Below are positions 6,351 to 58,623 of a stretch of 64,000 bases of DNA, in pieces. The notes under the pieces were generated by a model, which saw only the letters and a list, made by a program, of their open reading frames with translations, was not told the origin of the DNA and ran no database searches. This stretch comes from Argopecten irradians. Taxonomy: Eukaryota; Mollusca; Bivalvia; Pectinida; Pectinidae. A program made the translations under genes and the position numbers. Numbering within the stretch: the stretch's first letter is position 1; the number at the start of each line of letters is the position of its first letter. The stretch is from positions 9,148,075 through 9,212,074 of the forward strand of contig NC_091135.1 of assembly GCF_041381155.1 (NCBI RefSeq), written 5' to 3'.

Positions 6351-6433
6351 GAATAACTTGGTCCTTTACTTTATTCCTTATAGTTTTTCATAGTGAAAAA
6401 CTATTGTCTTTAAAATTTCATTCCTTTTTGAAG

Positions 6434-8696: not shown

Positions 8697-9219
8697 AATG
8701 TTTTAACAGTCATTAATATAAGTCTATTACATATCTAAAAAAATATATTTAAAAGGACATAGAAAAAAAAAGAAAAACATATAACTGAAAAAACCATGCA
8801 GAAAAAAATGTGCTTGGTAAATAGAGATACATAAAATATGTAACTGTCTGTAATGGATCAATATGTTTATGTATATTTGATGTTTTTTAACAAAATAAAA
8901 TTGTACAATTAAAACTTAACTCTTGGGAAATCTTTGTTTTCTTTATACTAGTAATGTCATCATCAGGTACATTGTATATGTAGTTGGCAGTTCAAATCCC
9001 TTTCATCCCTGGTCTGTCACCAGTCTTCTGTTAACAATTCCTGTTATTTCTCAGAACGTCTTGGAGGACACTTTCTGAAACTTAAAACCAGTAACCAAGA
9101 TGTAGTGTTTATACATCATCATGTATGTGTACATGTACTTTTTATCAGAAAATTCTGTTAGTCCAGTAAAGATAGGGTGTTACCCCAAAATAATTGCAAC
9201 AGAATTTTTTCTTTGTTTT
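8697..9219. other. Non-coding, A-rich, with a repeat end
   Basis: A-rich runs occupy 8735-8810. 9003-9100 carries the 'gtctgtcaccagtcttctgttaac' type of dispersed repeat. The AG in 'ttatttctcag' there resembles a splice acceptor but belongs to the repeat. Confidence 0.45.
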
Positions 9220-30782: not shown

Positions 30783-31016
30783 AGGTGTAATGAGTTGCAT
30801 TTGAACCGTTCCCTTCGAAATACACAGCATACTATGTTATTACTGAACTCTGAGACACGATTATATACGTGGAAATCTTCGTCTGAGCCTTGATCTAAGT
30901 GTCATTTTTTGGAAGAGGATTCATTGTTTCAACGTCTATCGTAGAGAAACCATCCAGGAACAATATACTCGTAACAGATTTGATTTTTGTATGTGTGTGA
31001 ACCAAAACAGTACAAT
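30783..31016 (+). other. Probable 5' UTR exon part of the zinc-finger gene
   Basis: It follows a pyrimidine-rich acceptor and runs without a second acceptor to the ATG at 31017. Upstream in-frame codons from 30987 are open but begin with TTG, so they are not used as the start. Confidence 0.5.
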
Positions 31017-33401
31017 ATGGAGGACACTGAAAATAAACAGTTCGAGTGTAAAATTTGTGGCAAGATATTTAGTTTGGCTGATCAAGACAATCATCTTAAA
31101 ATACATGCAAACGAGAAACCTTACAAGTGCAGCTTCTGTGGCAAAGAATGTGGCCGACCAGGTTACCTAACTGTACACATTAGAACGCATACCGGAGAGA
31201 AACCATACGTGTGTAATACATGCGGTAAAGGCTTTATGAGTTCAGCAAATCTTGCGTCTCATCTCAAAGTACACGAACTTGAGACGAGTACACACTGTGA
31301 TATTTGTGATATGAATTTCAGTACTCCAGATGAGCTTAAGGTACACTCAAGAACACACACTGAAAAACGTTTCAAGTGTGAATTGTGTGGCAAAGGATTT
31401 GATTCTTCGAGTTGTTTTAAAATGCATACAAAATTTCACGACAAAGGGAAGCCATACACGTGCGAAATATGTAGCAAAAGCTTTGTGGTACGCGCGTATT
31501 TAAAGGCACATCTTAGAACACACACCGACGAGAGACCATACAAGTGCGATACTTGTGGTAAGGCGTTTCGGAAGTCCACCCACCTTACTGCTCATACAAG
31601 AATACATACCGGTGAAAAACCTTTCAAATGTGATGTATGTGGCAAGACGTTCTGTACGTCAGGCGAGCTTGTGCTGCATGGAAGAGTCCATTCCGGGGAG
31701 AAGCCATACATCTGCAAGATTTGCAGTCAAGGATGTGTTTCTTCAAGTAGCCTCAAGGCACATATCAAAACACACTCAGCAGACACGTCTCACACGTGTA
31801 AGATATGTGGCAGAGGTTTTAAATCGCCAATCTACCTGAAGAATCATCTTAAAATACATGCCGAGAGAGAAAGGTCTTACAAATGTGGAATATGTGACTT
31901 AAGCTTTTTCACACCCCTGACTCTTAAGCAACATACGAAAAGACACGAAGACGATGTTCCTAGCCAGTGCGATTTATGTGATGAGGAGTTCCGTTCCTTA
32001 AAAGAACTCAAGCATCACAAAAAGACACACAACATCAAGAAGCGTTTCAAATGCGACATTTGCGATAAAACATTTAGTTCTTCAAGTTATCTTAACAACC
32101 ATGTCAAATACCACGACGAAGAAAAGCCTTACAAATGTGATATCTGTAGCAAACGCTACGGTTTACTTGGGACGTTGAAGAAACATTTACTAATGCACGC
32201 AGATGAGAGAAAATTCAAATGCGACATATGCAGCAAGAGCTTTTTGACATCATCAGTGCTCAAGCAGCATAAAAGGAAACATACGGGAGAGAAGCCGTAT
32301 AAATGTGAGATTTGTGGTAAGGGCTTTGTTTCCTCCAGTAGCAGAAAGATGCATCTAAGAACACATACTAAAGAGCAACCCCACAAGTGCGAAATTTGTG
32401 ACAAACGCTTTAGTCAGTTAGGAAACCTAAACCAGCATCTCAGAGTGCATGCTGGAGAGAAAACATTCAAATGCGATATCTGCCGAAAAGGATTTGCTTC
32501 TTCAAGCGAACTTCAGCTACATCACCGATCGCATACCGGAGAGAAGCCTTTTAAGTGCGAAATATGTGGTAAAAGGTTTAGCTCTTCAGGTTGCATAAAG
32601 AAACATATGAGAACCCATACCCAGGAAAGGCCTTACAATTGTACTTTTTGTGGTAAAGGCTTTAACCAAGCAGGGAATCTTAAAACGCATATCCGTGTGC
32701 ATACAGGAGAGAAGCCTTACAAATGTGATACGTGTGGTAAGGCATTTGGCCATTTAGATTCCCTTAAGATACATGTCAGAACACATACAGGAGAGAAGCC
32801 TTACAAATGCACCTTTTGTGGTAAAGGCTATAACCAAGCAGGGAACCTAAAAACGCATATCCGGGTACATACAGGAGAGAAGCCTTACAAATGTGATACT
32901 TGCGGTAAAGGATTTGCTCATTTAGATTCCCTGAAGAAACATGTCAGAAAAAATACCAAGGGGACGTTTAACAAATCTGTAATGTGTGGCAAAGGATTTA
33001 GCAAATCAGAAACTGTAGAAAAACACTCCGAACGTGTCGATTCTGGCGACGATATTTCGGGAGAAAATAACTGCCCTGTAACATTTGGGACAAACGTGAT
33101 AAAGACTGAGGTCGATGATACAAGAAATGACAGAGAAACCAACAGAGGAAGGGAAACAACTCGCCTTAGTGAGTTTGGCGATGTAAGGGGGACAACTCGC
33201 CTTAGTGAGTCTGACTGCTTAAGGGATACAACTCGCCTTAGGGAGCCTGGCACTCTCGGGGAAACACACAACACTAACCGTGGTAGTTCCGATATTGTGT
33301 ATCCTGGAATGCAGAAAATCAAGACTGAGGATGGTATTCCAGCGGTAACATATAGCGTAGAGAATGTCATGAAGCATTACAACGAAATCAATCAAATGTA
33401 A
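31017..33401 (+). CDS. C2H2 zinc-finger protein, 22 canonical fingers
   Basis: A 794-residue intact frame starting MEDTENKQF. It holds 22 canonical C2H2 fingers in a row (Cys-x2-Cys...His-x3-His), most joined by TGEKPY/F-type linkers. Two degenerate fingers follow: one ends in Asn instead of the last His, the next lacks its first Cys. Such arrays bind DNA in the nucleus, probably as a transcriptional regulator. No KRAB, SCAN or BTB domain is seen. The C-tail has three TTRLxE repeats (about 33156-33245) and two IKTE sites (VIKTEVDD, KIKTEDG) that fit the SUMO consensus. Fingers 20-21 and 22-23 are a near-identical duplication. The whole coding region lies in one exon. I cannot name an orthologue. 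Confidence 0.95.
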   Translation: MEDTENKQFECKICGKIFSLADQDNHLKIHANEKPYKCSFCGKECGRPGYLTVHIRTHTGEKPYVCNTCGKGFMSSANLASHLKVHELETSTHCDICDMNFSTPDELKVHSRTHTEKRFKCELCGKGFDSSSCFKMHTKFHDKGKPYTCEICSKSFVVRAYLKAHLRTHTDERPYKCDTCGKAFRKSTHLTAHTRIHTGEKPFKCDVCGKTFCTSGELVLHGRVHSGEKPYICKICSQGCVSSSSLKAHIKTHSADTSHTCKICGRGFKSPIYLKNHLKIHAERERSYKCGICDLSFFTPLTLKQHTKRHEDDVPSQCDLCDEEFRSLKELKHHKKTHNIKKRFKCDICDKTFSSSSYLNNHVKYHDEEKPYKCDICSKRYGLLGTLKKHLLMHADERKFKCDICSKSFLTSSVLKQHKRKHTGEKPYKCEICGKGFVSSSSRKMHLRTHTKEQPHKCEICDKRFSQLGNLNQHLRVHAGEKTFKCDICRKGFASSSELQLHHRSHTGEKPFKCEICGKRFSSSGCIKKHMRTHTQERPYNCTFCGKGFNQAGNLKTHIRVHTGEKPYKCDTCGKAFGHLDSLKIHVRTHTGEKPYKCTFCGKGYNQAGNLKTHIRVHTGEKPYKCDTCGKGFAHLDSLKKHVRKNTKGTFNKSVMCGKGFSKSETVEKHSERVDSGDDISGENNCPVTFGTNVIKTEVDDTRNDRETNRGRETTRLSEFGDVRGTTRLSESDCLRDTTRLREPGTLGETHNTNRGSSDIVYPGMQKIKTEDGIPAVTYSVENVMKHYNEINQM

Positions 33402-39757: not shown

Positions 39758-39842
39758 ATGGATACCATTTATGTGTCTGGGATACCGAAAGGGCTAAACA
39801 GCAAAGCGACTTGTCTGTTGATCAGAAAATACATTGAATCTG
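39758..39842 (+). CDS. RRM-UBL-GTPase gene, exon 1 (RRM strand 1, helix 1)
   Basis: From ATG 39758 the exon reads MDTIYVSGIPKGLNSKA and TCLLIRKYIESG, then a donor GTAGGT at 39843, ending one base into a codon. IYVSGI is a good RNP2 strand of an RNA recognition motif, and the following stretch is its first helix. The ATG follows 'tgcacag', so it could also be an internal exon. It joins exon 2 in frame (G|TG = Val). Confidence 0.7.
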
Positions 39843-40833
39843 GTAGGTACAAATTTCATTATTTATCATATAACTGCCTGATTTGTCTTTTTTCGATGCT
39901 ATTATTTTCAATTCCATACATATATGTTACAAAAATGACACAAAATGAATAATATTTTAATAGCTAAAAAAAACAACTTCATCATCTATGTACACGAACA
40001 TTACAAAATCAATGTATTTCGTTTTATCGTATATCAATATTGTAGGTATGTAGTGTGTTTAGAGGGATACCGATATGGTTCTCAACATCACAGTTAGTAC
40101 TTGATATTATTATCATTATCATTTTTCTTCTTATTTCATCCTATCTTTTTCGTCAAATAAATTTTCACAGAATTTTTTAGAAACTACTGAATGGGACATT
40201 TAAATACAAACCTTAAATGTGGTAGTTGGAATAGAGAAGTTCTTTATAGATAGTCCAAGAGAGCCGATTTCATTTTTATCAGATTCATGAAATAGGGAAC
40301 AAACTGTATGGGATCGAAAAAAAAATGGCGTCGTTTAAAAACTAAAAACTGAAAGCTAAAAACTAATAAAATCATCTATGGCATGGTAAATAAGGCCAGT
40401 TAGTGATTAAGACGCAAGGAAAATATGGAAATCAATGCATAAGTATTGTAAAAAAAGATATATCGTATAATGGGATAAGTTGGTTTGCCATAGTTCGCAT
40501 TAAAATCAGTTATTATGATATTTACGAAATAACGAATTATATTAACAATGCTTAAGAAAATGACGTACAACTGAGTCTGTTCAAGTTGTCAGTTATGTCT
40601 TTAGCAATGATATAACTAATAATCATTTCTAAGCCACTAAAAAGTATTTGTTCTTACGAAATACAAATAATAAAACAACAGTCGGTCTCTTGCCTGAGAG
40701 AAAATAAATACAATGCTAGAAAATGAACCAATCACTAAATATAGCATGTTATGTTTGAATACAGATTCTCATTGTCAGCAATCATAATGATAATGATTTT
40801 TCTAAATTTTCCAATTTTCCTTTTTTTTTTCAG

Positions 40834-40871
40834 TGGCTCAAGTGAAGAAAGTATGGATAAACAAAGAAAAG
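40834..40871 (+). CDS. RRM-UBL-GTPase gene, exon 2 (RRM strand 2)
   Basis: A 38-bp exon after a long T-rich acceptor (ttttttttttcag) with donor GTACGT at 40872. It adds VAQVKKVWINKEK, the second strand and loop of the RRM, and ends between codons. The exon is tiny, but frame, acceptor and donor all agree with exons 1 and 3. Confidence 0.7.
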
Positions 40872-41082
40872 GTACGTGAATTATTATCCAATACGGTGTG
40901 TAATGATAGTGTAAACTACATTTTTTGAATGGCAACATGGCCCCAATGCAATCGTTTCAAATGGGAATATTTCGCATTCAGTACTTAAGAGTACTTAAAG
41001 TGATAATGGAAGATAAAAAACATTCAATTGAGCCACTTTTAACTTTACCGACACCTATATAAAGCAGACGAAAGCAGAATAA

Positions 41083-41263
41083 AGGCTGTGGTGACCGAGT
41101 GGTTCCAACATATTACCCCGAATCCCATGTGGAGCAATTGCCAGGTACTGACCGCTGGTGGGTGGTTTTTCTCCGGGTACTCCGACCTTCTTCCACCAAC
41201 AAACCTGCCACATCCTTAATGACTATGACTGTTAAGGACGTGCTTCTAATAAAAACCATTTTT
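41083..41263 (+). mobile_element. tRNA-derived SINE in intron 2
   Basis: The head 'tgtggtgaccgagtggttcc' carries an A box; 'tttctccgggtactccgacc' and 'aaggacgtgctt' match the SINE at 37938 in opposite orientation. It is more diverged than that copy. Confidence 0.75.
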
Positions 41264-41328
41264 TTCAATAACCGCATTAGCCAACCAAGTTTCCAGGAAT
41301 TGCCAAACAACTTTCTGTTTATCATTTT

Positions 41329-41521
41329 AATAATTGGGTTTCTAGATCACAAAACGACGTAGGTAAAGTACAATTTACCTTCGATTAGTCCCACCTTTCG
41401 GTGATTATGACGTCACGAAACTCGCGTCAAATGGTGACGTCATAATCACCGGATGGTGGGACTAATCGACGTTGAATTGTACTTTACTCACCTCGTTTTG
41501 GGATCTCGAAACCCCCGTATT
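41329..41521. repeat. ~87-bp-arm inverted repeat (foldback MITE), intron 2
   Basis: Arms 41329-41415 and 41434-41521 match at roughly 85% around an 18-nt loop. The inner ends are 'ggtgattatgacgtcac' and its complement, so a CRE-like tgacgtca stands on each side of the loop. Confidence 0.85.
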
Positions 41522-42632
41522 AAGGTTATTCCTCTAATAAGTAAAGAAATATTTTTTTCACATCTTAAAGGCCCATTACCTTTCCGGATCAAAATATAAA
41601 GGTTTCTTAAAAAACCATTAATAACATCAGAAAATGCATACCGATGACCTAAAATAAGGTTACGACACCAAACATATGCAAGATTTCCTGCGTAATATAT
41701 GAAAACAGTGGAGAGTCAATTCGCTGTTTTGCCGTCTGGCGCAGTGATAGTCAACTACCGCGCGGTATTTAGGACGACGGCGGGAAACATAATACGACCC
41801 GCGTTATGAAAATAAACATTTTATTTATTTTAATCAAATCGTTCAGAAGGTGATGATAACTGTTGCATTGACGGTAAGTTAATAATTTTTGCGACTCTAC
41901 AAAATTACCGATCTTGTTTTACATTCCCATTTTAAAAATAAAAAAAGCCGTTTCGGAAAGGTAGCGGGCCTTTAAATGTCTTTAGATTAATCAATTCCTT
42001 ATCAAAATATAATTTGGATATCTCATGTAGGTGCACTCTAAATTCAATACCCTGCAAGTAAAATCTAGTTTTCCCCATTATAAATTTAGCTCTGGTAGAA
42101 AGGCCGCATTACTCAAATGAACCGTGCTTTATCAACATTAAGTTTTAAACCAGGGATTCTGACAGAATGTATGTGGCGGATGGTCTACTTGAGAGAAGCC
42201 GCTTTGATTTGGAGAAACGACACTCTTTAAGAACAAAATCTTGATATTTGTTGCCAAATTTTATTCTCTAGACTTTTTGTTGGGTTTGATTTTTCTTGAT
42301 ATTTCTTTGGATTGTCACTCTCTTCTTGCCATCTTGATCAAACGACACTTTTTAATTTCATTAAATTCTATTTTTTTCTCATTCCATTTTTATTCACTGA
42401 TACTTAAGCATTCACATGTTCTTGTTCTTCTCAATTTTGAATATTTTCTTAAGATTATCTCCGATGCTATTTAGCTGTTTCTCTTTAAAGGAGACGTAGG
42501 AAATACCTTTACTCCTGATTACCATTATAGTTTTGAGAAAAGTTGGTCATTAATAACACATTGAACATCTGTAGCAGGAACTGATGTTGTCCTATTATAG
42601 ACTATAGATATAAAAGTGAGAAATTGGAGTTC

Positions 42633-43031
42633 TCCCATACTTCACAGGGATATCCCGCGGTTGCTAGTGAAAAGATAACTCTATCTTACACAGGGGGGTG
42701 TAAGACAGCTCACACGCGCTAGACAATAACGTGACGTCATCAATACATGCGGCGTAACTGCGCCGCGCATTGTAGATGACGTCATCAATTTTGACGCATA
42801 ACGACGTTCCTGCGATAATGGCGCGATGAAAAAGCTGGAAACCAAGTGGAATCTCATCATTTTTTCTACTAAGTATGGGAGAAAAAGAATCAAACATGGG
42901 TCTGTGAAGTGGACAGGGATATCTCAACCCTCGTGAAAGATTTTGGCCGTCAACCCTCGGCAAGCCTCGGGTTGACCGGCCAAAATCTTTCACTCGGGTT
43001 GAGATATCCCTGTCCACTTCACAGACCCATG
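42633..43031. repeat. Nested inverted repeats, intron 2
   Basis: The outer part has 'ttctcccatactt' at 42633 and its exact complement at 42871, enclosing two 'tgacgtcat' sites and a GC-rich imperfect hairpin (42725-42785). It abuts a second hairpin at 42895-43031, whose 60-bp arms (starting catgggtctgtgaagtggac) match with two to three mismatches and one gap. The 117-codon frame on the minus strand here is a by-product. Confidence 0.8.
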
Positions 43032-43559
43032 TAAGATTATATTATTCCAGAGCTCCTTGTTTCGTTTGAATTCATTTTATGTAGATCCCTATAAAATGAT
43101 TCTCAATAATTTCTAAAACCCCTCTCCCTTGCCTTTTGGTAATTTATAACTGTTATAGCTTGTAAATTTACAATTTTAAAATCACAATTTGAGTTTATTG
43201 TCTAGATTTCCAAGTAAAATGTACTTATCGTTAACAAAATATTCTAAAATATTTGGTATAGAGTCATAAAAAGTAGGTGTTTCAATGTTTGACCTTATTA
43301 CGTGATGAAATTCATTTTGAATCTTCAAAATAATTCTCCATAAATCTTGTCATTCTCTTACAGCTTAAACTTCAACATTACAACTAAAAAAACCAACAAT
43401 TCCCCTTGAGTTAGATTTTAATGAACTAAAATTACAGTCACAACACCATAAACTTCTTGTAGACAGCATTTCAACAATTGTTATTCTTCACATACGCACG
43501 TACGTCTTTACAAGTCCGATACAATTCGCTGATAATATCGACACCCACTCCATTGTCTA

Positions 43560-43913
43560 ATAATTCAATTTTGCTTGTTACGAGCATTTTCATTGGCTTA
43601 AAAATTTACTTTATCAGCCCTTAAAGGAAAAAATGGCGTCGCCGTTTATAACGTTGCTTCTGATTGGCTGAGATGACGGCGTAATGATTTCATAGACAAA
43701 AGAGTCCCATAATGAATTTTGAATATTGAAGAGATTATCTTTAGTAAATTGAATTATAAGGATTAATTTGAATAGATTTTTTATGTTATGGAGATATAAC
43801 ACAAAAATCTGAGTGTACTCTCATCATAAACCGCTTCGCGGTTTATTTAGAGTACACTCAGATTTTTGTGTTATATCTCCATAACATAAAAAATCTTTTC
43901 AAGTTAATCTTTA
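43560..43913 (+). mobile_element. 354-bp hairpin-ended element, copy A
   Basis: It starts 'aattcaattttgcttgttac', passes 'cattttcattggctt' and 'ttctgattggctgagatgac', and ends in a long hairpin (43761-43909) centred on accgcttcgcggt, with arms containing 'tatggagatataacacaaaa'. Copy B at 52068 is the same element on the other strand; a worn copy C lies at 59291. There is no coding capacity. Confidence 0.88.
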
Positions 43914-44257
43914 AATATTTCAATTAACTATAAAACTGATGATATCAACCTACAGAAGACAGATATGAAGAATTAACATATCAAACAAGCTAAAGGTCAA
44001 TGTTGATTTCTCGACATGCTATTCTGGCATTATAATAATTCCACGTTGATAAATTGAATGTTTACAAATTTGAATGTCGGTCATTCTAAAGAACATGGTG
44101 GCGGATTAGATTGAAATCTATTTAATTGGTGCTACATTGTATATAAAGAATTAATCATGGACCAGAAAACTACATACATGCATAAAAAGGTGCACAATCT
44201 TTATGTTAATCATATTTTACAATCACAATTGAATTACAGTGTTTTATTGTTTTACAG

Positions 44258-44320
44258 GGATGCGGACATATAACATTGTTCGACTCCACATCTGTGGATA
44301 TGGTACTATCACTTGACGGA
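44258..44320 (+). CDS. RRM-UBL-GTPase gene, exon 3 (RRM strand 3, helix 2)
   Basis: A 63-bp exon of 21 full codons between 'tgttttacag' and GTAAGT. It reads GCGHITLFDSTSVDM and VLSLDG. KGCGHITLFD across the junction fits the RNP1 strand, followed by helix 2. The aromatic residues normal in RNP1 are partly replaced, so the RNA-binding mode may differ from a canonical RRM. Confidence 0.72.
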
Positions 44321-45243
44321 GTAAGTTTAATGATTGTTTAATTGATTATAGAATTTCATGTGCATTCATTGAGGTTTGAGGGTATAGGATCAGTGACTTA
44401 CCGTCAATGACAAATTTGTGGGTGGTGCTTAAAGTAATTTAAATCCCATTAACCTTTATATTACGTTGGACGAGAAAAATATAATTGATAAAGCGTGACT
44501 ATGATGGCCCGCCTAATATGACCTCCTTATTATCTTTCATTGGAGTGTACATTCCTTGAAAGACCATTGAGTTATTCAAATTGCTCCTAGTCATGATCCA
44601 CTGTATACATTTAAATTAATTTCAAAATATCTATGTTGACTCTGAAAACTCCTTCCCCCCGTTACCGCATTAAAGCTGGAGTTTTGAGACCTCATAGCCT
44701 GATTTGGTTTTAAATTGTACTTGAAATCGCTACCGGTCATGATATACTAAATGCAACAAATGGTATAACTTGTCTCTTAAAGGCCGAAGGGGATGCACAA
44801 TTATAGTTAGTAATGAAATATTGACTAGAATGATAAGACAACTCTTTTGTAGCCAAAATGGCTGGTTAGAATTACAAAAAAACACACAAAAATCAATAGT
44901 TGCACATCCTTTAACCATTGTTGTTAACTAAATACGCAGGTGAGCCCTCCAGGTTCCTTGGAATTTTTAAAGCTGTAAAACAAATTAACATTCACATCAT
45001 TTTAAGCTTGTTAAGTTTTGACATTTAGAAATGAAACCTCAATTTTTATTTAAAATACCCTCGTCCTCGTCTACTTGATATAATATATAAAATAAAATGA
45101 CCTTCAGAAATATATTTATATATTTACAAATGCCAAAATTTCTTATAAGCTGTACCATTGTACAGAATACATCCTATCTAAAATAACTACTAAGGGCTTT
45201 ATCAAAAACAATTTAAAATCTACAATAATTGATCTAATTTCAG

Positions 45244-45576
45244 AAGGTCAATGTCAACGGATGTCTACTCACACTTTGTAGAAACCGTAAAGTTAACCCT
45301 CTGACAAAACCTAAAACAAAAGAAAATCGTCAGAACGATCTGATTCAATCTCATGATTACACAAGACCGACAAAAATAGCATACGAGACTTATGCTGCAT
45401 ACAAGGAAGATGTTCCACAGACGGATACGCTATACCAATATGCTGCCCCAGTACCGACAAGATGTCAGCGAAAGAAAAGAAAACCATGGAAAGATACAGC
45501 CCGAATATCTTCTATACAGACTCCTAAGTCAGGAAGAGTACGTAAACGGCACAGTCGGCATAGGAAGAAAAATCAG
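45244..45576 (+). CDS. RRM-UBL-GTPase gene, exon 4 (RRM end, basic linker)
   Basis: 333 bp, 111 codons, with acceptor 'tctaatttcag' and donor GTAAAC. It begins KVNVNGCLLTLCRNRKVNP, the last RRM strand. A linker with Tyr-rich text (YTRPTKIAYETYAAY) follows, then a very basic end (TRCQRKKRKPWK; RVRKRHSRHRKKNQ). The basic clusters could be nuclear-localisation or RNA-contact segments. Frame and phase fit exons 3 and 5. Confidence 0.72.
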
Positions 45577-46118
45577 GTAAACTAATGTTGCCGAAATTTT
45601 ATTATTATTAGATTAAGTTTAATATTTTTTGACAAATGAAAATCGGTTTGAGGGAAATAACAATGATTGTTTTGCCCGATCGCTTGAAACTGGGACGTTA
45701 GTAATATGATATATGTTAATATTTGAGAAGTTAACACATATAGTTTTGTTAAATTTATAACGTTATAGCTATGATCGTCTCAAATTCAGCTTTGATAAGA
45801 TCTCGTTAAAACGCGTTTTAAGCTATATGGTTTTACATTAAGACAAGAAGAGTTTTGGGATGAGGTTATGTGTGCACTTCTGTTATAAAATTGTAAATCG
45901 CATTTCAGTACAAATAAATGAAAAACGAATGTACCAATACATTACTTTTATTATTAAAAGTGTATCACCGGAATCCTTCGATTATCAGGTATTTTGCTTC
46001 TATTCATTTGATTAAACAGTGTCATTTAAGAAGATTGTATATTTCTAAATGCAACTGCAAGATAAGTTTAAGTTTAAAAGTAATCTCTGATTATTATCTA
46101 TTTACTTTTGATAAACAG

Positions 46119-46567
46119 TATAGATCGCAGCGTGCGCAGTGCCATACAAATATAAGAAACCAAAAGGCAGAAAAAGAAAACTTAGACTGTCGAAGAAAAT
46201 CTGGAGCCATGGAAATAAACGATGTCATCACACATCAGATTATAGATACAAATTTAGACAGAGGTGATCATTTGGGTATGAAACCAGACAAAGATGTGTC
46301 ACAGCCTTCATTCTCCCAAGTTCATGTGTACGACCACGGAACACATGTGTGCGACATCTATGTTGACAATGACAATATTTTTCAAAGTATCAACGACGAG
46401 GTCTCAAGTAAACGCAAAATCCCAGTGTCGCTTCTTCGGCTAGAATACAAAGGGAAGACTGTTAATGAAAGTTGGCCATTACATATCGAGAATGGTGATA
46501 AATGTTCATCTTTCTGTGAAGTGCAAGGGAGGAATGATGGAAGGCACTGATTCATCTCAATCAACTG
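46119..46567 (+). CDS. RRM-UBL-GTPase gene, exon 5 (ubiquitin-like domain)
   Basis: It begins after 'ttgataaacag' with YRSQRAQCHTNIRNQ and, after a polar linker, has a ubiquitin-like fold: QVHVYDHGTHVCDIYVDND, IFQSINDEVSSKRKIPVSLL, LRLEYKGKTVNESWPL, then HIENGD. The annotated frame stops at 46548. One base fewer in the A run at about 46500 gives NVHLSVKCKGGMMEG and runs open to a good donor (GTAAGG, 46568). That is the natural end of a UBL and keeps the phase needed by exon 6. I take this as an indel in the sequence or a real frame break; which one cannot be told from the sequence. Confidence 0.68.
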
Positions 46568-47548
46568 GTAAGGATATAAATAAATATTGAAAAATGGCAA
46601 TATTAATATTATCTACACATGTTAAGAATTGTCAAATGAGCACGTGGACAATATCAACTCTTGTATATTACTTAATGCATATTACCTAATTTCAAAGCAT
46701 TTAATTAATTGGAGATGTAGATTCAGCTGACTATTCCAAATGTGTTACTGTGCAAAACCCTATAGCAATTTTTATGAATAAAAGGTAAATTTTTATTGAA
46801 ATAGAGTGAAATATTTTCTAAATAGCATATTCCTAACAATTTGTTAGCAGTACTCTCCACATTTATGGACCAGATATGTTACGGATGTAGGAACATACAT
46901 TATTTCTCTATGCGTCGCCAGGAAATGAGAAAATGTTAATTATTAATCGCGGAATAGATACAAAATGAGCTTCCGACTCAAAATAACAATTATCATTAAC
47001 TTGATGCAACGATAATTAACAATCATATTAGAGGGTAAAAGTTAATTCAGGTACGTGATCTTTTATTTAATCATTTTCAAAAATCAAATAACAAAATCCA
47101 GTGTGCTTCAAAAGTCGGTGAACAATAAAGGTATCACACTTCTGGTGGTAATTACTTCATCGAACTTTCTCGATGTCTTAGCATTAGTAATACTTAAGTT
47201 GAAGTTTCAAGACGATTATAACAATTACATCATCATATTTTGATTGCCGCCTAGTATGAGTTAATAATCTATGTGATATATTTTCAACTTATCGCTAAAA
47301 CATTGCAAATGTTCAACTAGAATGATGAGTTTTGAAAAAGGCCTCGGTGTGTGTGATGGTGTCCAAGATGAAAGGATAATAAATCAGACGGTAGATTACC
47401 AATATTTGGCTAAGAAAGATTTGCTTTAAAATCGTTTGCGCTTTCGTTTGAATTGTTTAAAGTAGTTAGAGATGACAATTATCATTAGACACATTATCAC
47501 TTGTATCATATAGAATGAAACTCTTTTCATGTTTTTGCTCATTTTTAG

Positions 47549-48264
47549 GTAAAATGCCTGGTTCACAGAGAGATTTTCTGCAATTCGATTACTCTGGACA
47601 TTTCAAAATCAATATCGTTTCCGAAGGCCTTGCTTCCGTAAAAATAATTAAGCTGAGCATAGAAGAGGAAGAATTTGTAAAATTTTGTCACCTCTTTTCG
47701 TGTGATAGACGGTTACGTGCATTAAAGAAAGCCTTGGAATACAAACTGCACCTTGATATAGTAAAAAAGGGTATCCTCCTAAAGTTTGTCTACAACAAGG
47801 GTTCACAGATGTAAGTGAAGCAGGCAGACATCAGAGAATCACTAAGAAACTATTTGTGGTCACCAGGATGCTATCGACTTTTCCACAACGCCTTGGAATA
47901 TCGATCAAATTAAACATTTTTTGTCACCCTTGGACGGTTATCAGGATGGTACTGTTATCGGTTACGAAGTGTCAAGTGAAACAATAACATACTGGCTTGT
48001 TGGTGAAAATAGTTCTATTGCCAAAGTTCGTGACATTTTGAATCGGGAGCTAGGTAATGAACTTCTATCCGACAAAGAATTCGGCAGAGCAAAAGCTGGT
48101 GAAAATAATTTGTGCGGAGATAATGATGACTCATTAAAGTCAATTAAAACGCAAGGGGCTATTACAGATGATTCGACTGTCAAGGAGAAAATTCTGATAT
48201 TTGAGACAAAAGCAACCTCTCAGGCAATCAAAAACAAATCCATCGTCAGCTTTAACACAAAAAG
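47549..48264 (+). CDS. RRM-UBL-GTPase gene, exon 6 (unrecognised domain)
   Basis: After the acceptor 'ttgctcatttttag' it reads GKMPGSQRDFLQFDYSGHF, joining exon 5 in phase. Then come IIKLSIEEEEFVKFCHLF and RRLRALKKALEY. The frame breaks near 47813 and about 47845. It goes on as DAIDFSTTPWNIDQIKHFL, DGYQDGTVIGYEVSSETITY and SIAKVRDILNRELGNE to a donor at 48265. The second half, with alternating strand and helix, could be a KH- or RRM-like fold, but I recognise no family. An alternative donor (AT|GTAAGTG) exists at 47814. Confidence 0.55.
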
Positions 48265-49985
48265 GTAAAATAAGATTATTATTATGATCATATATTCAGG
48301 ACAAAACTGGCATTTGTACGGCGACACAGAGGTGACAAAATAAAATATGTTTTTAATGTAGAGTGAAAATTTTTTTTTGTTTATGTAAGACGAAAAATAA
48401 TTTATTTTATGTAGTGCCATAGATTTTTTTTCTTTTACCGGCTCACGTAAAACGTATGTTTCACCCTACATAAATAATTTTTTGTCCTAAATTATTTTTT
48501 TTCTGACACCTCTGTTCCGCCGTACATTTCTGATTATGTTTTTAAAAAAACACCAAATTAAAATATTTCAATCACGCTTACTTATGCTTTTCTGCAAATG
48601 ATATATCTTCCGATATGATGAATATGATAGCAAAAAACAGTCGTATATGTGTTTTAAATGTTTCAATAGATAGTATTGAAGCTATGCTGTACTCTATTCT
48701 CACTTGGGAAGCAGAGTTTTTATCAACGCATTTTGTAACTCATTCATTCGGTCTACTTAAAGGAGGGGTATCAATTTAGGTCTTTTCACATCCACTTACA
48801 AATAAGCAAAATTTTTGGCATCAACTTTAGGGTCAGCTTCATATTATGTGTTATTCAAAACATTTTTCTCGGTTCGTGGTAATTTCAGAGACCAATGTCA
48901 CGGGTTGAAATAGGATTTCCATTTTTCAAGTTTCTTAAACTTGCTTGTGATGTTTGATTTTAAAACATTCCTAAAACTACTAGTATGAATAGACCACAGT
49001 GACCTACGTTAGTATTTAAACATTTATTTATCACCAAAACATACCATAACAATGCATGTTAACCATTTGATAAATTAGAACAGTTGCTTTTCATTTATGT
49101 TGACACATCCCAGTGTATACACATTGACATCAAATCTCATCCCCAGCCTCTATTATTTCAAACTGGCTTTTAATTACGGACTACTTTTATATTCGTCTAT
49201 TCTTATTTTCTTAAATATAACAAAAATATTAAAAATAATTAATTGCGTTCCGAAAAAACTCCATGGTAGTATGCCCTATATGGAATGACTGAATGCACAT
49301 GCACCACAAGCAGATTTTTTTTTATATATTTATTTTTGTGTTAATGAGACACATATATGCACGATTAAGACATCAGATATTGTTCAAATGATGGGCTTGG
49401 GAACTGCAGTGAACCCTGAGTGGAAATGTAATTGAATATGGCAATATGACTGGCGGTTCATATAGTCTTGAAAAAGTTTAATCTATTTATTTCTCATTCA
49501 AAGGAAAATTATTTAGGATGAATAATTTTGTTTTTGACCTATATTTGTATCAACATTTTATAGACTAGAATTGCCATTTAGTCCGCTATCTTGAATCATA
49601 TTTCTTACTTTTGTCAATATCTTTTAATTATTTTAACACCTCATTCGTCACGTTTGATCACTTGAGGTAATGAAGTGATTACATATTTTTTACATCTTTA
49701 TGAAAATTCTTTATAATCATTTTTTGGAATAATGATTTGTATTAATGGGAAGTTAATACTAGCATATATTGTAATCAAAGAGATGAAAACATTGCTCCAT
49801 TAGGAGGAAAATGATATAGTTGTTCACGCATAGGTCATAGTTGACTCTCGTGTTAAAAAGCTAAACATAAATAGCCACGGAATGACTTCCTAGAAATTAA
49901 AGATTAGTCATTTCCCAGCATTATATTTCAATAATTTAACATCAAAATGTCTGATTTTCTTTTTTTAATATTTTCATAAATGAAG
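48265..49985. other. Intron between exons 6 and 7
   Basis: AT-rich. 48330-48500 contains a loosely symmetrical block ('gacgaaaaataatttatttt' ... 'aaataattttttgtcctaaa') that may be a decayed foldback element. No coding exon is seen. Confidence 0.4.
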
Positions 49986-50048
49986 CATTTGAAGATAAAT
50001 CAGCAGCCCAGGTTCCCATATCTGCCTTCCCGACCTGTAGATCACCTG
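49986..50048 (+). CDS. Candidate exon 7 (linker)
   Basis: 63 bp between 'ttcataaatgaag' and the donor GTGAGT. In the phase that suits the GTPase exon it reads AFEDKSAAQVPISAF and PTCRSP, ending one base into a codon, so that G|AT makes the Asp that opens the GTPase exon. The incoming phase fits exon 6 only if the short A run at its end is one base shorter. A second frame is also open, so this exon is tentative. Confidence 0.4.
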
Positions 50049-50569
50049 GTGAGTGTTTATCTAAAACCTGCCTATTGAATTAAGTGAACGAACATCTTTA
50101 TGTCAAAGTAGCATGTACAACAGATATGTGGAATTTCATATCTACCGTTTGGCACATTCTGGCACGTTTGAACAGTTGTCTCCATTAGATTTCACCGTTG
50201 AAATCATCAGGTAAGCGTTATGCAACTTATCATATATCCTAAAATTTACAATTTTTCTCAATTACAGAATTTCAAAATGCCGACAAGCAATTAAAATATC
50301 GTATAAAAATTGCAAAAGTAATCATGCCGTCTCACACAAAATGCATAAATTACCGTCCGTAAGCAATAATATGCGCGTTCATTGAAAACAAAAACTAAAA
50401 CAACATGGCGGATTTTTAAACGAAAAAAATGAACTTGACAGCTAATTACGCGTGTGCTACATGCATGTATTAAATGTAGCCATGACAGTAAACAAGTACG
50501 GTAGATCTAGGGATATCCTAGTTGTACGGTATGATATCATATCATTCTTATACTTTTTTCTTCTTTTAA
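50049..50569. other. Intron sequence before the TTAA element
   Basis: 50176-50210 looks like a mini-exon (acceptor aacag, donor gtaagc) but its phases fit neither neighbour. Nothing else is recognised. Confidence 0.4.
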
Positions 50570-51824
50570 CGTAGACCGTCCCTTCCGTGACGTCATACGT
50601 TTGTAACGTCGCTATCCGGATTCCGGCAAACGTAATTTATTTCTCCGTACCCATCTATTATAACTCGCTTCTAACATCGGCATTCGAGCAAATAATGTAT
50701 TTCGTCTAGAATCTTTCCGAGTGTTTACTTGAAGTGTATCAATCTAAAGGGGTGACAATCGGTAAATATAGTATAATTTTGAAGATTCATGCATGAAGTA
50801 AAATCCAAGAATCCTATAATAGTCGCTAAAACAGTCAGATGGAACACACATGAATTACGGGGACCCAAAATGAAAAAAAAAACTTCACGTCATCAGTACA
50901 GTAGCCTAGTAACAAATGAATGACCGTTATCATTATAATTGTTTACCTATCTTTTTGCAAAATAGAAATAAATTTAACACAGTACATGTATATGGATGCC
51001 AAAGGAACTTAGTGGTGTTTTGAATGGAAACATTCGAGTTTCGAGCTTCAATAGGCACTCTTCGTAAGATGCCGGTATACTAATTTTTTCGTACGGAAAT
51101 GGACAAAAAAAAAATACGGAAATAAATTGCTGCAAAATATTTTCATTTTATTTTTGTTATCTTGTATGCTCCAATAATATAATAAATATAGAAAATTAAC
51201 AAAGGTAAATAAAAAACATAAAACGTTGAAAAGTGCTACGGATTCGCTTATTCTTATCGTTTTCAGGCCAAAATTTAAGGGGTCTTAGAAAGCAAATCGG
51301 TCACATTTTGAAAAATAATGTGGTAAGGTATACTTTTTATTGGTTGTTCTTATTGCAAAAAAAGTCAATCTTCATGGAAATCATAAAAAAATCGATTTTT
51401 TTGAGATCATTTTTTTTCAGAAAAAAGAAAAGATGACTATTTTGATGCAATTTTTCACTAAAATTGGGTCCGCATTTAATTGTTTAAAATAACGATATTT
51501 CGTTTTATTGTGGAAAACCAAGCTTATTTGATATAGTTATAAATTCTATATCACCTACTGAAGGTATGAACATGTTACGGGCATATTCTTTATATGTTAA
51601 GCGATGTTACACAAAGGAAATATTATTCATTTAAAAATCCTTAAAATCCGAAATTTTAAGTCATTAGTACATATCTTTAATATATATATATAAGTAACCC
51701 GGCAGAAAAATTAACCCGGTGACAAATAATTTTTATGTGGTTTTTGTGATCAGGGTATACCTAAAATCAAAATAATAAAAAATAAACGAAATACTTGAGA
51801 TAAAACCAGAAGGGACGGTCTACC
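50570..51824. mobile_element. Non-autonomous piggyBac-like element (TTAA flanks)
   Basis: The ends CGTAGACCGTCCCTTCCG and CAGAAGGGACGGTCTACC are complementary over about 16 bp, and TTAA stands immediately outside each end (50566-50569, 51825-51828). TTAA duplication is the mark of piggyBac-type insertion. The 1,255-bp body has no transposase; its only open frames are short. Confidence 0.8.
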
Positions 51825-52067
51825 TTAAAGAATTGTATAAATTCTCTATTTTGCTAGTGAGACTTATACATGTACGAGTGGAAAACGTAGTTGGGCCCAA
51901 ACGGGGGTAATACGATTTTATTCCTTTTGCCACGTTCCCAGCCATTTTCCTAGCCCTCGGCAACACCTACGACCACGCCCTCTTGGTTCATGATCATGGG
52001 TCTATCGGACGAGCTAGATTCATGATCAAGACTTGTGAAGCTGGCGATAGTATGTATCAATTTAATT

Positions 52068-52421
52068 AAGGATTAACTTGAATAGATTTTTTATGTTATG
52101 GAGATATAACACAAAAATCTGAGTGTACTCTAAATAAACCGCGAAGCGGTTTATGATGAGAGTACACTCCGATTTTTGTGTTATATCTCCATAACATAAA
52201 AAATCTATTCAAATTAATCCTTATAATTCAAATTACTAAAGATAATCTCTTCAATACTCAAAATTCATTTTGGGACTCCTTTGTCTATGAAATCATTACG
52301 CCGTCATCTCAGCCAATCAGAAGCAACGTCACAAACGGCGACGCCATTTTTTTCCTTTATGGGCTGATAAAGTAAATTTTTAAGCCAATGAAAATGCTCG
52401 TAACAAGCAAAATTGAATTAT
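52068..52421 (-). mobile_element. 354-bp hairpin-ended element, copy B
   Basis: The same element as 43560-43913 but on the opposite strand and about the same length, with very high similarity (for example 'aagcaaaattgaatta' and the gaagc-centred hairpin at 52071-52209). It lies in the intron before the GTPase exon. Confidence 0.88.
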
Positions 52422-53156
52422 TTATCAATAGCATAAACCATGTTTTTCACACTGCACTATAACAAAAATATTATTTACATGTGAAGGACAAAAAGGATCC
52501 CCATTTGTATTGATTTCTAGTTTTGAAAAGTAACTATTAATCCGAAATCCTTGTGTGTAATAGAATATCGGTTTGTATTTCACGATCGACCTTCAGTCTA
52601 TTTAATTATCAGGACTAAAATTAACTTGCCTTAAATATTTTCAAATTGAAGATTTAACTAAGCAGGTATATGTAATGTGACCATTTTTATATATATAGCT
52701 CAATGCTTCCGCGGTATAAATGACATTCCCAGCCGAGCGTTAATTATCCCATAAGAATCCCACAGTATGTGTTATGTGATGAGAATCGTGTAGTTCGCTT
52801 TGAAGAGCAAAACACATTATACAAGATTCATTTTTTACGTATTGACCTATTTCCGACAAAAGTATGTATACGTACCAGCGCGCATGCTTCTCTGTGTTCA
52901 TGTGGCTTTCTCCGTTCGGTTAACAAACATTTTACCGAATTTAAATGTTAAATATATTTGGAGAGAAGTTCTAAGTTTTAGGATATATAAAGGGTTGCAT
53001 AACGCTTGGTTTTTGTTTTCAGTGGTGAAATCTTAAGAAATTTACAGTTGTGTAACAACATTACATCGTACGGTATATATACGATTTTCACGATGTGCGA
53101 TGTTATGCAGTGCAGTTCATACATGTCTTTAGTACATCACGTGACTGAATACCGGA
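52422..53156. other. Intron sequence, nothing recognised
   Basis: AT-rich. Short open frames at 52769-53036 overlap one another and show no family features. Confidence 0.4.
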
Positions 53157-53682
53157 TTCTGATTGGCTACACACATGGGCACTATTTGCAATAGTGCCCG
53201 GGGCAAATAGTGCCCGGGCATGCGGGCACTATTGAAGTGGCACGAAATTGAACGTGAATATATTATGACGTCTTTATAACGTTGCGCTTCGACCAAGACG
53301 TCAAGATGGCGGACAGGCTGTTGTGTGCAAATGTTGCTTTTCTACATATCACTAATGTTCTATGGATCTACTTTTCATGAAGCTGAATCCCGTTTTATAG
53401 AAACACATATTTCTATGACAATACATATCTTGCACTTTTAATGGTACAACGTGGTGTGGAAATGACGATAGCGTTGCGAGGTGTCGCTTCATGCCTGACT
53501 TGACTTTTTTTGTTACGATGACATGAAAACGAGTCCCGTGTGAGGGTGATGTACTGAACCCATTATGGCCTGGATGAGAGGGCACTATCGTGATGGGATA
53601 GTGGCCTCGCCTTCGGCTCGGACACTATTCCATCCCTCGACAATACTATGAGGCAATAGTGCTCTCTCAACCAGGCCATAAT
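53157..53682. repeat. Element bounded by 'gggcactatt' hairpins
   Basis: The left side has gggcactatttgc at 53177 and its exact complement at 53203. The right side is a hairpin (53563-53588 with 53656-53681, arms ttatggcctggatgagaggg-type, about two mismatches) around a second inner stem (gatgggatagtg/cactattccatc). 'gggcactat' is shared by both sides. It is likely one non-autonomous element. Confidence 0.65.
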
Positions 53683-53907
53683 AGATAAATATAGCGTTTA
53701 TACTAGGTCACCTGAAACGAAGTCACGAAACGCATAATTTCGATAGATATTCGTCTGGAAAGTCATAAAGGGAAGTAACACTTATATATCAGAATGGTAA
53801 CACATGGCAGCTTTAAATTGGAATTACATATAAAAATATGTTACATAATTTTATGAAAAAGTATCTTAGTTATTATATTGTATTTAACGAACATTTTATT
53901 TATTCAG

Positions 53908-56900
53908 ATCAGAGGGAAATGATTAAAGATCTAGGGCTGAAGGAATACTTTCCTGGCAAGCTCAAGTTCGATGACGTAATGGCAATTACCAAGAATGAAA
54001 ATGATGAAACAGCGACACTAGCAGATATCCCAATCATCATTGTGCGTAAACTAATTATGTTAGATTACACAGGAAGAGAAGTTATTTTACATCAGTTCTA
54101 TCATAGAAACCATGTGAATGTTAGTTTTAAACGTAATCCAATAGACATACTTCTTACAATTTTTATGTGTCTCAGTCCATCGTTAAAAAGCATCGTTTGT
54201 TCTAAAATGTTTATGTGTCGTATGGCAATACCTCTGCTTTATCCTTCGCCCATTTACGAGGGAAAACTAAACCTCAACATTTGGCCACTTCATACAATAG
54301 TCGCTAATGATGGTGATTTAGAAAGGAATGTATTAAATAGTGACCAATATATTCTCTCCATTGTAAGGATAGGTCGTCCTCCTTTATCAAAATCCAAAAT
54401 AGCCAATGAAATACTATGCGATTCCAGTTTTCCTACGTTCTTTCATTATGATTGTAAGTTGGGGTCCCTTGAAAAACGTTGCAGCAGAGGACTCATAGAA
54501 GCCGCATGGTACCTGCCATCGACAAAGAAAAGCGATAATTTTCGGTAAGCTAACACAGGTTCTTAATTTAAGGGGCGACCTCTTACAGCATGAAAAACAT
54601 GCGGCGTTTTTGAAAGCTGTTTCTAACGTCATGATAATTGTGACAGATCAAGAGACATTGGACAGAACAAATTTCATGCAACACTTCGTAGGTTCTGTTA
54701 ATGCGGTATTTCTCATAGATGGTGATAATTTGAATAACCAGGAAGCTAAGAAATTAGAAAACAAAACAGATATACATTGTATTTATCTAAAGGAAGATAA
54801 AAAACAAATAAGTATGTCTGAAATAACGGAATCACTATTAGCGATTCTTGAATGTTTACTTACTGGGAAAACAAACGCGTTGACATTTTCACAAATTTGC
54901 CACATGGCAAGAGAAATGGACATCAGTATCGATACAGAAGGTCTCCTTGATGGGAAAAGCAAAGCGGATGAATTGTTTGCTATGTTAAAAGATGAGAGTC
55001 TTCATAAAATAAAATCCAGGTTCACGCCACTTCAAACAGATTTGTGGAAATCATACTCGGACACAGAAAAGGAACTAAGAAAGGGCTGTGAATTAACAAT
55101 ACATGCAGCAAGTGAGCTTTCTGAAAAAATGACAAAACTAAGGAACAACCAGGTTAAGAAATACAGGAATATAGCAAAACCGCATTTGATGAAAACAATT
55201 ATCATGTATATGGATAAATTAAGAGATGCAGAATTCTGCAATTTTTTAGAAAGCTTAAAATTTCATCTTGACGAAAAGAAACGAAAAGAATTACCTGCAT
55301 ACCAAGAAACATTGGATGCGGCATATAAGTTGCAAAATAAACAGCCTGAGGGAAAACAGTCAAAACAGAAACAAGTGAAAGAAGCAGAACAAAATCTTCA
55401 CGAGGCATCCTTTGGAATAGAGCATTTATTTCGAGAATTTGGACAAATTTTTGAAGCCCATACTGGTGTTGAAAATTTTGATAGAAACAGAATAGCCAAA
55501 AACGTTGCTAGATCAATAATGTTAGGATATCCTTTCGAAATAATGGATGGGGACGTTGCTAACATACCTTTAGGATGGATAGAGGAGGTTTTTTAAGGAA
55601 CTGAAGAACATGATGGGGAGTAGTGCAAAGGTTGTGTCACTTTCAATTCTAGGACTTGAAAGTTCAGGCAAGTCGACTCTATTAAATGCTATGTTCGGTT
55701 TTTTTCCTTTTCCGTGAGCGTTGGTCGATGTACCCGGGGAATCAATATGCGAATGTTACCTGTGAAAAGAAACATGTTTAAGTTTGACTACGTGTTGATT
55801 TTTGATACGGAGGGACTACGAACCTCTGACGTAGGTAGGAAAACATATCAGCATGACAATGCTTTAGCTACTCTCGTTCTCGGGATGGCAGACATATCAA
55901 TTATAAATATAAAAGGGGAAAATACTAGCGGTATAACAGATATACTTCAAATCTGTGTTCACGCTTTTTTGCGATTGCAATTAGCTTATAAGAATTTGAA
56001 ACTAAGACAGTCTTGTATTTTCATCCATCAAAATGTACCAGATGTCAATGCTAAGAAAAAGATGAGTTTTTCTCTAAACAAATTAGAGGAGACACTTGAC
56101 AGAATTACCCTAGAAGCAGCAGCTGAAGAAAATATTTCGGACATAACACGTTTCAGAGAGGTAATTGAATTTGATATCAATAAAAACGTTTGGTACTTTC
56201 CAGATCTATGGAAAGGTGATCCTCCCATGGCACCAGTTAACCTGGGATATAGCATGAACATCGATAATGTTAAAAATGACATCGTCAAAAGATTTGTGCA
56301 GAATGAAACAAGTTACAGTGATATACATGATTCTTTTATTCACTTGCGTGATCTATGGAATGGAATCCTAGCAAATGATTTCGTTTTCAGTTTTCGAAAA
56401 TAGTATAGAAATGAGAAACTACAACAAATTGGAAGAATATTTCAATGGTTTTGTTTGGGAACTTGAGCTTTATAAAATCGAAATATGTAAAATATTTAAT
56501 CAGCACATCAATCAGTTTGAATCATACGATGACCTGAAGAAGGAAGAAAACGAAATAAAAAGACAAACTAAAGATCTTTTTTCAAAAAAAGGTATTCAAA
56601 TTAAGGAACGTTTAAAGGGTGTTTTTGAAGAACATAAATCAGATTTCGTACATTGGAAAAACACAAAGCTTATAGCTTGGGACAACCAATTCCAGCGTTT
56701 AGAATCTATCTTGTATCAGGAAATAGCTAGTTTACAGGAACACTGCCGCATGGATTTAGACATGAAGAACGCATACGATAGTAACAAAAGAGAAATCGTC
56801 GAAAAAGCTTCGGAATTGGCAGAACAAATGAAAGGTAAATGTTTAGACGAAAATAAGATGCTTAAGGATTTTGATAAAATGTGGTCAGCATGGATAGAAA

Positions 56901-58545
56901 AATGGGATGTTCAAGAAAATTATGAAGACGTTGCAGTAGCACTGGAAAGGATTTTATATGAAAGGTTTGAACGTATTAAAGAGCAAATCGATTCAGAAAA
57001 GGAAACATTCCGTAAGGAGAAGAGGAATAAAGAATTACACTGTTTAGTGGAAAGCTTTGCTTTTGTTGATTTAAAACCTTACATTATTGCCAAGTGGTCT
57101 TTCAATCCAATAAAACATCTCAACAAAAAGGAAATAAAGTCACAACGATATTCTCAGGTTGTTTCTTTAATCAACAATATATTCACAGAAATAGACACCA
57201 AGTTAGCGACTATATCCAGGTCTAACTGGAAATTTAATGTAACGGAAGTGAAGGATATGACGAAATGTATTGTCGAACGGATCGATAGACATAATCAAGA
57301 CGAAGCAAAGGATTTCACTGTTTCAAAAAACTGCAAAATTAAATTACATATTGCAGTATTCGATCATTGCTTACCACTGTTCCAAAATTTGAATAAGCGT
57401 TACATTGAAAAACATAGCATGAAAGCTAAGCTAATGAAACAAAAAGAAATTGTCTGGGGTCATTTCACTGACACCGTTCAACAAAAGGCTTCGGACATCG
57501 TTGCAAGGAACAGATTGTGTGATATTATCCGTAAATATGTCGAGGAATACGTTAGACAGCAAATTCCCGATTTGATATATACAAGGACTATAGAAGGTTT
57601 TTTCGATTTCAAAACATGAACTATGCATTGCTATATTAACAGATCTTGCTGAGAAGGAGCAATTTCATTTATACAATGACTACATACGTGATGCATCTGG
57701 ATATGCATTAAATTGGATAAAAGATCACATAAACCGAAAATGTTTTGAAAAACCAAATTCTCAGTACTATGAGTTAGCAAAAATGAAAACCGACCAGATA
57801 GTCAAACAAGTATTACAAATCGCCTCTGTAAACAGAAAAAAACCTCTAGCAGAATGGCTTAGTGAATTTCATAATGAAATTAAAAACCATTTACCAATTA
57901 GCCCTGGCTCGCTTTATCTTGTTCGAGAACAAAATGTTTCAGATATGGAAAACTTTCAAACTAAATTGGTCCAAGATCTAGAAAAACTGTCGAAAGAAAT
58001 ATATGAGAAATTTGCAGGAGACACGGTAGATTCAGTAGCATGGGAAGGCATAACTCCATACAAAAAAGGTAATGGATAAATTATGGGGATGTGAGTGTGT
58101 TTGTCCTTTCTGTAAAGAACCATGCCAATGGAACTCCATTCATACGGGCGCACACTCTTGCATACAACATCGCCCTCCAGGATTAGCTGGTTGGCATTAT
58201 TTAAACAGTGAAATTATTGTCATTGAAAGCTGTTCATTTCAGATCCAATCAGGTCAAACGTTTCGTTGTGGAAGTGGCGGTACGTTATGTAAACGGGATT
58301 CAAACAAATGTTCAATAAGCAAAACATCTGAGGATTATCACCCTTTTAGGGATTATAAGAAATACACAAAAGATTGGGATATCCACCCTTGTCCTGATAT
58401 CTCCTCCTCCAAATACTGGGCTTGGGTGATGTGTAGGTTTAATGGGGATCTCGCTGATCATTATAAAATCAAAAAAGCTGATATTCCTTCCTCTTGGAAG
58501 TCATATAAAAAGGATGACGCGATTAAAAGTTTAAGGGAAACATGA
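53908..58545 (+). CDS. Very large interferon-inducible GTPase (VLIG/GVIN), exon 8
   Basis: One 4.6-kb exon after 'ttatttattcag'. In order it has the family N-region (LGLKEYFPGKLKFDD; PIDILLTIFMCLSPSLK; PLLYPSP; LNIWPLHTIV), RGDLLQHEKHAAFL, then the G domain with P-loop GLESSGKSTLLNAMFG (55652), GRCTRG, DTEGLR (55805), LGMADISIINIKGEN and FIHQNV. A long helical stalk follows (56400-58070). The end is a Cys/His module: CECVCPFCKEPC, HSCIQHRPPG, WDIHPCPD, LADHYKIKKADIP. Vertebrate members are interferon-induced and linked to cell-autonomous defence. The frame breaks about six times (near 54540, 55590, 55700, 56390, 57599, 58062), mostly in T or A runs, yet every motif is present. About 1,540 codons. 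Confidence 0.93.
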
Positions 58546-58617: not shown

Positions 58618-58623
58618 AATAAA
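58618..58623 (+). promoter_or_regulatory. Poly(A) signal of the GTPase gene
   Basis: AATAAA 73 bp after the TGA at 58543-58545; the expected distance for a short 3' UTR. Confidence 0.6.

Follow-up and report, generated by a model that had tools for sequence, protein, structure and literature searches.

The stretch analysed here, called the window below, is 64,000 nucleotides of Argopecten irradians (contig NC_091135.1, corresponding to C2:9148075-9212074 in an 846-Mb assembly whose contigs are numbered C1, C6, C738 and so on, with C16a and C16b denoting two loci on C16). Between positions 39758 and 58545 its forward strand carries what is quite probably one gene of a scallop multigene family, encoding an RNA recognition motif (RRM), a basic linker, a ubiquitin-like domain (UBL) with a Gly-Gly-Met end, an optional cassette, and a giant GTPase of the VLIG/GVIN type in a huge last exon. 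The initial annotation had proposed that the RRM, the UBL and the GTPase belong to a single gene; this is supported by a Mizuhopecten protein of the same order and by linkage throughout the Argopecten genome, while the window copy itself is broken as assembled.

Exons and domains of the window gene

All features described for the gene lie on the forward strand. The first five exons (85, 38, 63, 333 and 449 nt) are joined by GT-AG sites in phases 1, 0, 0 and 0, and their coordinates and phases agree with those first assigned. Exon 1 (39758-39842) contains the start of the RRM, MDTIYVSGIPKGL, and is left in phase 1; its start and donor pattern are also present at C6, C352, C1 and C9. Exon 2 (40834-40871) encodes the middle of the RRM, VAQVKKVWINKEK, and has homologues at C6, C352, C1, C16a and C9. 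Exon 3 (44258-44320) contributes the RNP1-like motif KGCGHITLFD, which reads KGIGFVTLFD, KGYGAISLFD or KGYGSVSLYD in paralogues, and exon 4 (45244-45576) contains the RRM end and the basic linker. Linker and UBL are encoded by exon 5 (46119-46567), which reaches a phase-1 donor after stepping over one extra base. The initial annotation had discounted one A to obtain this phase; an extra base is indeed present, and comparison with C6 and C352 places it at about 46494-46502. As a result of this base the frame runs into a TGA at 46548, and the corresponding NCBI model ends after 316 amino acids. In the frame of the paralogues, the Gly-Gly-Met codons of the UBL end lie at 46528-46536 (VHLSVKCKGGMM). 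The NCBI Argopecten irradians "uncharacterized protein" (P0007, 316 amino acids) is letter-identical to exons 1-5 up to the first stop, and the locus thus seems to be annotated already, but only in part.

The GTPase exon (53908-58545, 4.64 kb) has a phase-1 acceptor and encodes the URGCP and URGCP_GTPase domains, a long stretch devoid of Pfam matches, and a Cys/His-rich end. Both Pfam domains exceed their curated cut-offs in the pieces read between frame breaks (115.3 and 57.9 bits versus 27; 200.6 and 85.3 bits versus 55). A P-loop, GLESSGKST (GxxxxGKS/T; 55652-55678), and a DTEGL motif are present, and the Cys/His-rich C-terminal segment could be aligned with P0001, the Mizuhopecten protein described below, and with two fish proteins. 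By segment, identity is 28-56% to P0001 and about 22-32% to fish VLIG proteins. The exon, initially described as a single one of 4.6 kb, is not open in the window but changes frame at six positions (about 54537, 55589, 55699, 56397, 57598 and 58068); at C16a it is open through 1572 codons. An AATAAA (58618-58623) follows 73 nt past the stop codon. It had been claimed that no poly(A) signal separates the two halves of the gene, yet the interval 46548-53908 holds 12 AATAAA, starting with the one at 46579, a count that carries little weight in DNA as AT-rich as this.

Between the two halves lies the cassette (47549-48053), which corresponds to exon 6 and part of exon 7 of the initial annotation and is homologous to the N-terminal part of two Mizuhopecten macro-domain proteins (P0002 and P0003). 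It is in phase 1 at both ends. The end of exon 7 had been set at 48264, but the homology and a phase-1 donor both stop at 48053. In the 11 copies read (11 of 12 GTPase clusters, the second C9 cluster standing aside), the acceptor of the GTPase exon, judged by eye, is invariably in phase 1, with similar protein right up to the acceptor. Exon 5 can therefore join 53908 directly, phase 1 to phase 1; joins to 53908 from 48264 or from an exon at 50004-50048, as first suggested, are needless and were dropped. The cassette was present at two of the eight loci read, the window and C208; at C1, C6, C352, C16a, C16b and C9 the segment separating UBL from GTPase was searched for it with no result. Both copies are degenerate, and they share the end donor CTAG|GTAATG in phase 1; the C208 copy, likewise located between UBL and GTPase, contains two nonsense codons. 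The length of the window copy, 505 nt, is a multiple of three minus two, and a single-base loss at each of its two frame breaks would account for this. We read the cassette as a symmetric optional exon that is probably now decaying. The cassette region is flanked by inverted copies at 43618-43917 and 52063-52362, 8.1 kb apart and 95% complementary over 300 nt; each holds a palindrome, and they resemble miniature inverted-repeat transposable elements.

The RRM is well recognized by its predicted fold and only weakly by its sequence. AlphaFold2 predicted a beta-alpha-beta-beta-alpha-beta fold for residues 1-74 of P0007, with ten-residue blocks of mean pLDDT (predicted local distance difference test) 69-85, and most of the 50 PDB matches listed by Foldseek are named RRM proteins (NONO, SFPQ, raver1, U2AF65), some of the matches being chains of large complexes. 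The best Pfam match by sequence was RRM_PARP14_3, the third RRM of PARP14 (E 0.0058, below cut-off), and RRM_1 reached E 0.02 in one family member, also under the Pfam cut-off. RNP2 is IYVSGI; the RNP1 of the window, KGCGHITL, lacks one aromatic residue that is present in P0001 and C6. The UBL, by comparison, is a good call as a profile of five sequences and a weak one as a single sequence, which scored 16.3 bits against a Pfam cut-off of 25.4. The profile matched tetra-ubiquitin with E 2.4e-27, the displayed alignments giving about 0.0006 to 0.02 for each domain; the alignment spans 61 positions (17-77 of 83) including the Gly-Gly-Met, the first 16 profile positions being unaligned. The UBL part of the P0007 model has low confidence (blocks of 26-47), as would be expected with the UBL end out of frame in that protein.

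Linkage of the two halves in scallop genomes

The closest relative found is P0001 of Mizuhopecten yessoensis (2130 amino acids), in which one gene model runs from MDTIFVSGIPKGL via the linker and the UBL to a complete GTPase. With words taken from the first 560 residues of the joined reading, three of 6034 candidate proteins were matched at E <=1, namely P0001, P0002 and P0003, all from Mizuhopecten. An alignment search of the 7991 candidates with the most words in common returned P0001 along with an unnamed protein and two VLIG proteins of fish, and no further fusion was shown among them; in a search for shorter relatives, P0007 was the sole match among 6348 candidates. These searches reach proteins that share short exact words with the query. 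The initial annotation had asked whether RRM, UBL and the GVIN G domain occur together in protein databases, and had regarded the lack of a related genome with the same order as evidence against a single gene; P0001 provides the combination, in the same order and in a related genome.

The Argopecten genome was examined through the best 15 candidates for URGCP (16 matches) and the best 30 for P0007 (E up to 10), which we grouped into 12 GTPase clusters and 12 N-terminal (RRM/linker/UBL) clusters, the weakest matches being poor individually. Among the matches listed, 10 of the 12 N-terminal clusters have a same-strand URGCP GTPase downstream (the window on C2, C1, C6, C352, two on C9, two on C16, C208 and C286), and for 10 of the 12 GTPase clusters an N-terminal one lies upstream. 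The second GTPase match at C9 is a fragment covering 92 of 299 positions. The unpaired N-terminal clusters are C732 and a second one on C208, for which no URGCP match was listed downstream on the contig; of the unpaired GTPases, that at C593 lacks an N-terminus within about 20 kb, and the C738 contig starts about 100 bp ahead of the GTPase exon. Linkage of this extent among the matches listed led us to reject a chance adjacency of the two halves.

Several loci repeat the order of the modules, the exon phases and the phase-1 junction. The RRM exon pattern is found again at C6, C352, C1 and C9 and partly at C16a, and phase-1 UBL donors are present in the window, C6, C352 and C9; C208 reads alike, and C16a has two phase-1 candidates inside a repeat. 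Trees of the N-terminal and GTPase halves agree, with Mizuhopecten falling between two Argopecten clades, a comparison of five taxa that is of supporting weight only. Homology and this small tree suggest that the layout was inherited by duplication and predates the split of Argopecten and Mizuhopecten, and the whole gene would be expressed as a single transcript.

Individual copies differ in further respects. The RRM-UBL parts of C6 and C352 are about 97% identical, whereas their GTPase exons are only about 82% identical and that of C6 is 90% identical to that of C286, which looks like an exchange of GTPase exons between copies. At C16a, the UBL exon continues into tandem repeats of the TDGQTSSSQPGN type, which encode a low-complexity linker. 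The upstream part of C9 (about 5162-9220 of the extracted locus) contains a partial second copy of the linker and UBL start, so that the N-terminal half is internally duplicated there.

Frame breaks and alternative readings

The window gene as assembled has about nine small frame breaks, one in exon 5, two in the cassette and six in the GTPase exon. A serious alternative to an intact gene, although in our judgement not the probable one, is that the family is real but is represented in the window by a pseudogene or null allele making at most the truncated RRM-UBL protein of 316 amino acids. The number of breaks, the degenerate cassette and the nonsense codons of its C208 counterpart are in line with this. 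Several observations on other copies also weigh against the favoured reading: of 10 other GTPase copies set against P0001, C16a alone keeps to one frame throughout, C16b has one frame change and each of the others one or more, a stop lies inside the C16b UBL, and the C208 UBL contains frame breaks. In addition, C16a and an open reading frame for an 805-amino-acid zinc-finger protein in the window are intact, which argues against a uniform assembly error; any such error must be uneven.

The nature of the breaks can be judged by comparison with C738, which is a second copy of 53.8-60 kb with 97.9% identity. The two copies differ by 15 indels of one or two bases in the GTPase exon and by two in the flank. 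All six breaks of the window GTPase exon are extra bases (one or two) that are absent from C738, and four of them lie in stretches of four or more T or A; C738 carries four indels of its own, and five of the 15 exon indels, within 56578-56616 and 57088-57256, were assigned to neither copy. Over 1464 codons, counted outside these two segments and three gapped codons, 43 nonsynonymous and 24 synonymous differences were found against 50.7 expected nonsynonymous ones (P 0.021), together with no nonsense changes against 3.4 expected (P 0.027) and 10 second-position changes against 22.4 (P 0.0005), these P values being uncorrected and derived from one pair of copies. The ratio is 0.58 with the observed base changes, the value used here, and 0.43 with a plain site count (P 0.0017). 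The comparison thus shows signs of purifying selection. The coding pattern of the substitutions makes decay of long standing unlikely, and we rejected an old pseudogene on the same comparison. Assembly errors or null changes of very recent date probably account for most of the breaks.

It is improbable, to our minds, that the locus consists of two neighbours, an RRM-UBL gene and a VLIG GTPase gene, that were co-duplicated as a unit and falsely merged in the Mizuhopecten model. The distance between UBL and GTPase varies, with extremes of under 1 kb at C1 and about 26 kb at C286, as it might between separate genes, and the NCBI model at the window locus comprises the RRM-UBL part alone; however, its end at 316 amino acids stems from the frame break, and the paralogues continue via Gly-Gly-Met to the phase-1 donor. 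The GTPase exon, with the same acceptor phase in all copies read and similar protein up to the acceptor, needs an upstream exon, and P0001 is one gene model. Other findings count against a single gene: the word-limited searches of the protein database yielded no fused Argopecten protein, the protein that NCBI derives from the window locus stops early, the exon-3 donors of C6 and C352 lack the GT and exon 3 of C352 has a frame break, a pattern search of about 14.8 kb did not recover exon 1 of C16a, and no UBL donor of C1 reached a score of 7 of 9. A chance likeness behind the RRM and UBL assignments can be dismissed as very improbable, since sub-threshold single-sequence Pfam scores and the low-confidence UBL model are outweighed by the confident RRM fold with its named RRM matches, by the alignment with ubiquitin through the Gly-Gly-Met, and by the conservation of both domains among loci.

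Possible functions and known relatives

An unexpected finding concerns the end of the UBL. All nine UBLs read (window, P0001, C6, C352, C1, C16a, C16b, C9 and C208; eight distinct sequences) end in Gly-Gly-Met, those of the window and C208 being read across frame breaks and those of the second C9 cluster, C286 and C732 standing outside the count. Besides the G, G and M themselves, the N, H, V and K among the residues preceding them are invariant; the end has the pattern K-x-(K/R/N)-Gly-Gly-Met, and its Gly-Gly-Met falls on the GG-M junction of polyubiquitin in the profile alignment. The Gly-Gly is internal in the protein, not terminal. One might envisage, as a rather unlikely extension of the single-gene reading, that the RRM-UBL half is a processable modifier and that a deubiquitinase cuts after the Gly-Gly, which would free a giant GTPase with a new N-terminal Met and an RNA-binding, ubiquitin-like tag attachable to other proteins. 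If true, the same gene would supply an RNA-guided ubiquitin-like modifier as well as a defence GTPase, just as ubiquitin-ribosomal fusions give two products. However, the conservation of Gly-Gly-Met could also reflect the UBL fold.

Fusions of the ubiquitin-ribosomal type include FUBI. The scallop UBL aligns on the GG-M junction of polyubiquitin and with the ubiquitin-eL40 and ubiquitin-eS31 fusions; it differs from all of these in being internal, with an RRM ahead and a giant GTPase behind, and its single-sequence similarity is weak. OASL, an antiviral RNA-linked protein, has C-terminal ubiquitin-like domains and a catalytic domain of another kind. PARP14 shares with the scallop proteins the sub-threshold similarity of its third RRM, and neither the window pieces nor P0001 showed a macro or PARP domain. 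With 37% identity overall, P0001 has the same order of RRM, basic linker, UBL with GGMM, and GTPase, but no segment resembling the cassette could be aligned in it, a long low-complexity linker being present instead; it was deposited as "interferon-induced very large GTPase 1-like", with no mention of RRM or UBL.

With VLIG/GVIN proteins such as human GVIN1, the scallop proteins share the URGCP domain, a VLIG-type GTPase with P-loop, and a Cys/His end. GVIN1 is described as having an N-terminal domain, two large GTPase domains, a helical linker and a C-terminal domain, and neither an RRM nor a UBL is mentioned in the available part of that text (PMC11974893). Human GVIN1 coats cytosolic Burkholderia thailandensis, and GVIN proteins had no reported function before this coating, as far as the same part of the text goes (PMC11974893). 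Two clam papers contain the words "gvin" or "very large GTPase" (PMC8674894, PMC11592408). Among the titles and abstract beginnings listed from an open-access library, none reports the fusion of an RRM or UBL to a GTPase of the VLIG/GVIN type. The GTPase family is known, and what seems new is the fusion of RRM and UBL onto it: scallops appear to possess a family of genes that join an RNA-binding domain and a UBL to a giant GTPase of the immune type.

By analogy to vertebrate GVIN/GBP defence GTPases, the scallop GTPase would most likely act in the cytosol and dimerise or polymerise on a target. The RRM may bring the GTPase to RNA or a ribonucleoprotein, and the UBL may dock partners of the ubiquitin pathway or be cut after its Gly-Gly. 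Coat-forming or polymerising proteins directed by the RRM and controlled through the UBL can be envisaged, and the scallop protein would then combine RNA sensing, a ubiquitin-like handle and a role in defence. That an RNA-binding domain and a UBL with a cleavage-type GG-M end are wired to a GVIN-type GTPase hints at what these proteins detect and at the way they are regulated, and the window locus exemplifies a gene that has seemingly been annotated only partly by the pipeline.

Upstream of the gene, the window contains a 70-bp tandem array at 1657-6289 (about 66 copies, 91% matches) and the intact C2H2 zinc-finger frame of 805 amino acids at 30984-33401. Between these, 18542-25734 is occupied by a Helitron-type element with Helitron_like_N, DUF6570 and PIF1 helicase in several overlapping frames, as well as a weak endonuclease match below cut-off. 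Its first frame (18542-19606) has a Herpes_teg_N match (PF04843) above the cut-off (27.8 bits versus 25, E 2.3e-6), which may be an OTU-like protease domain.

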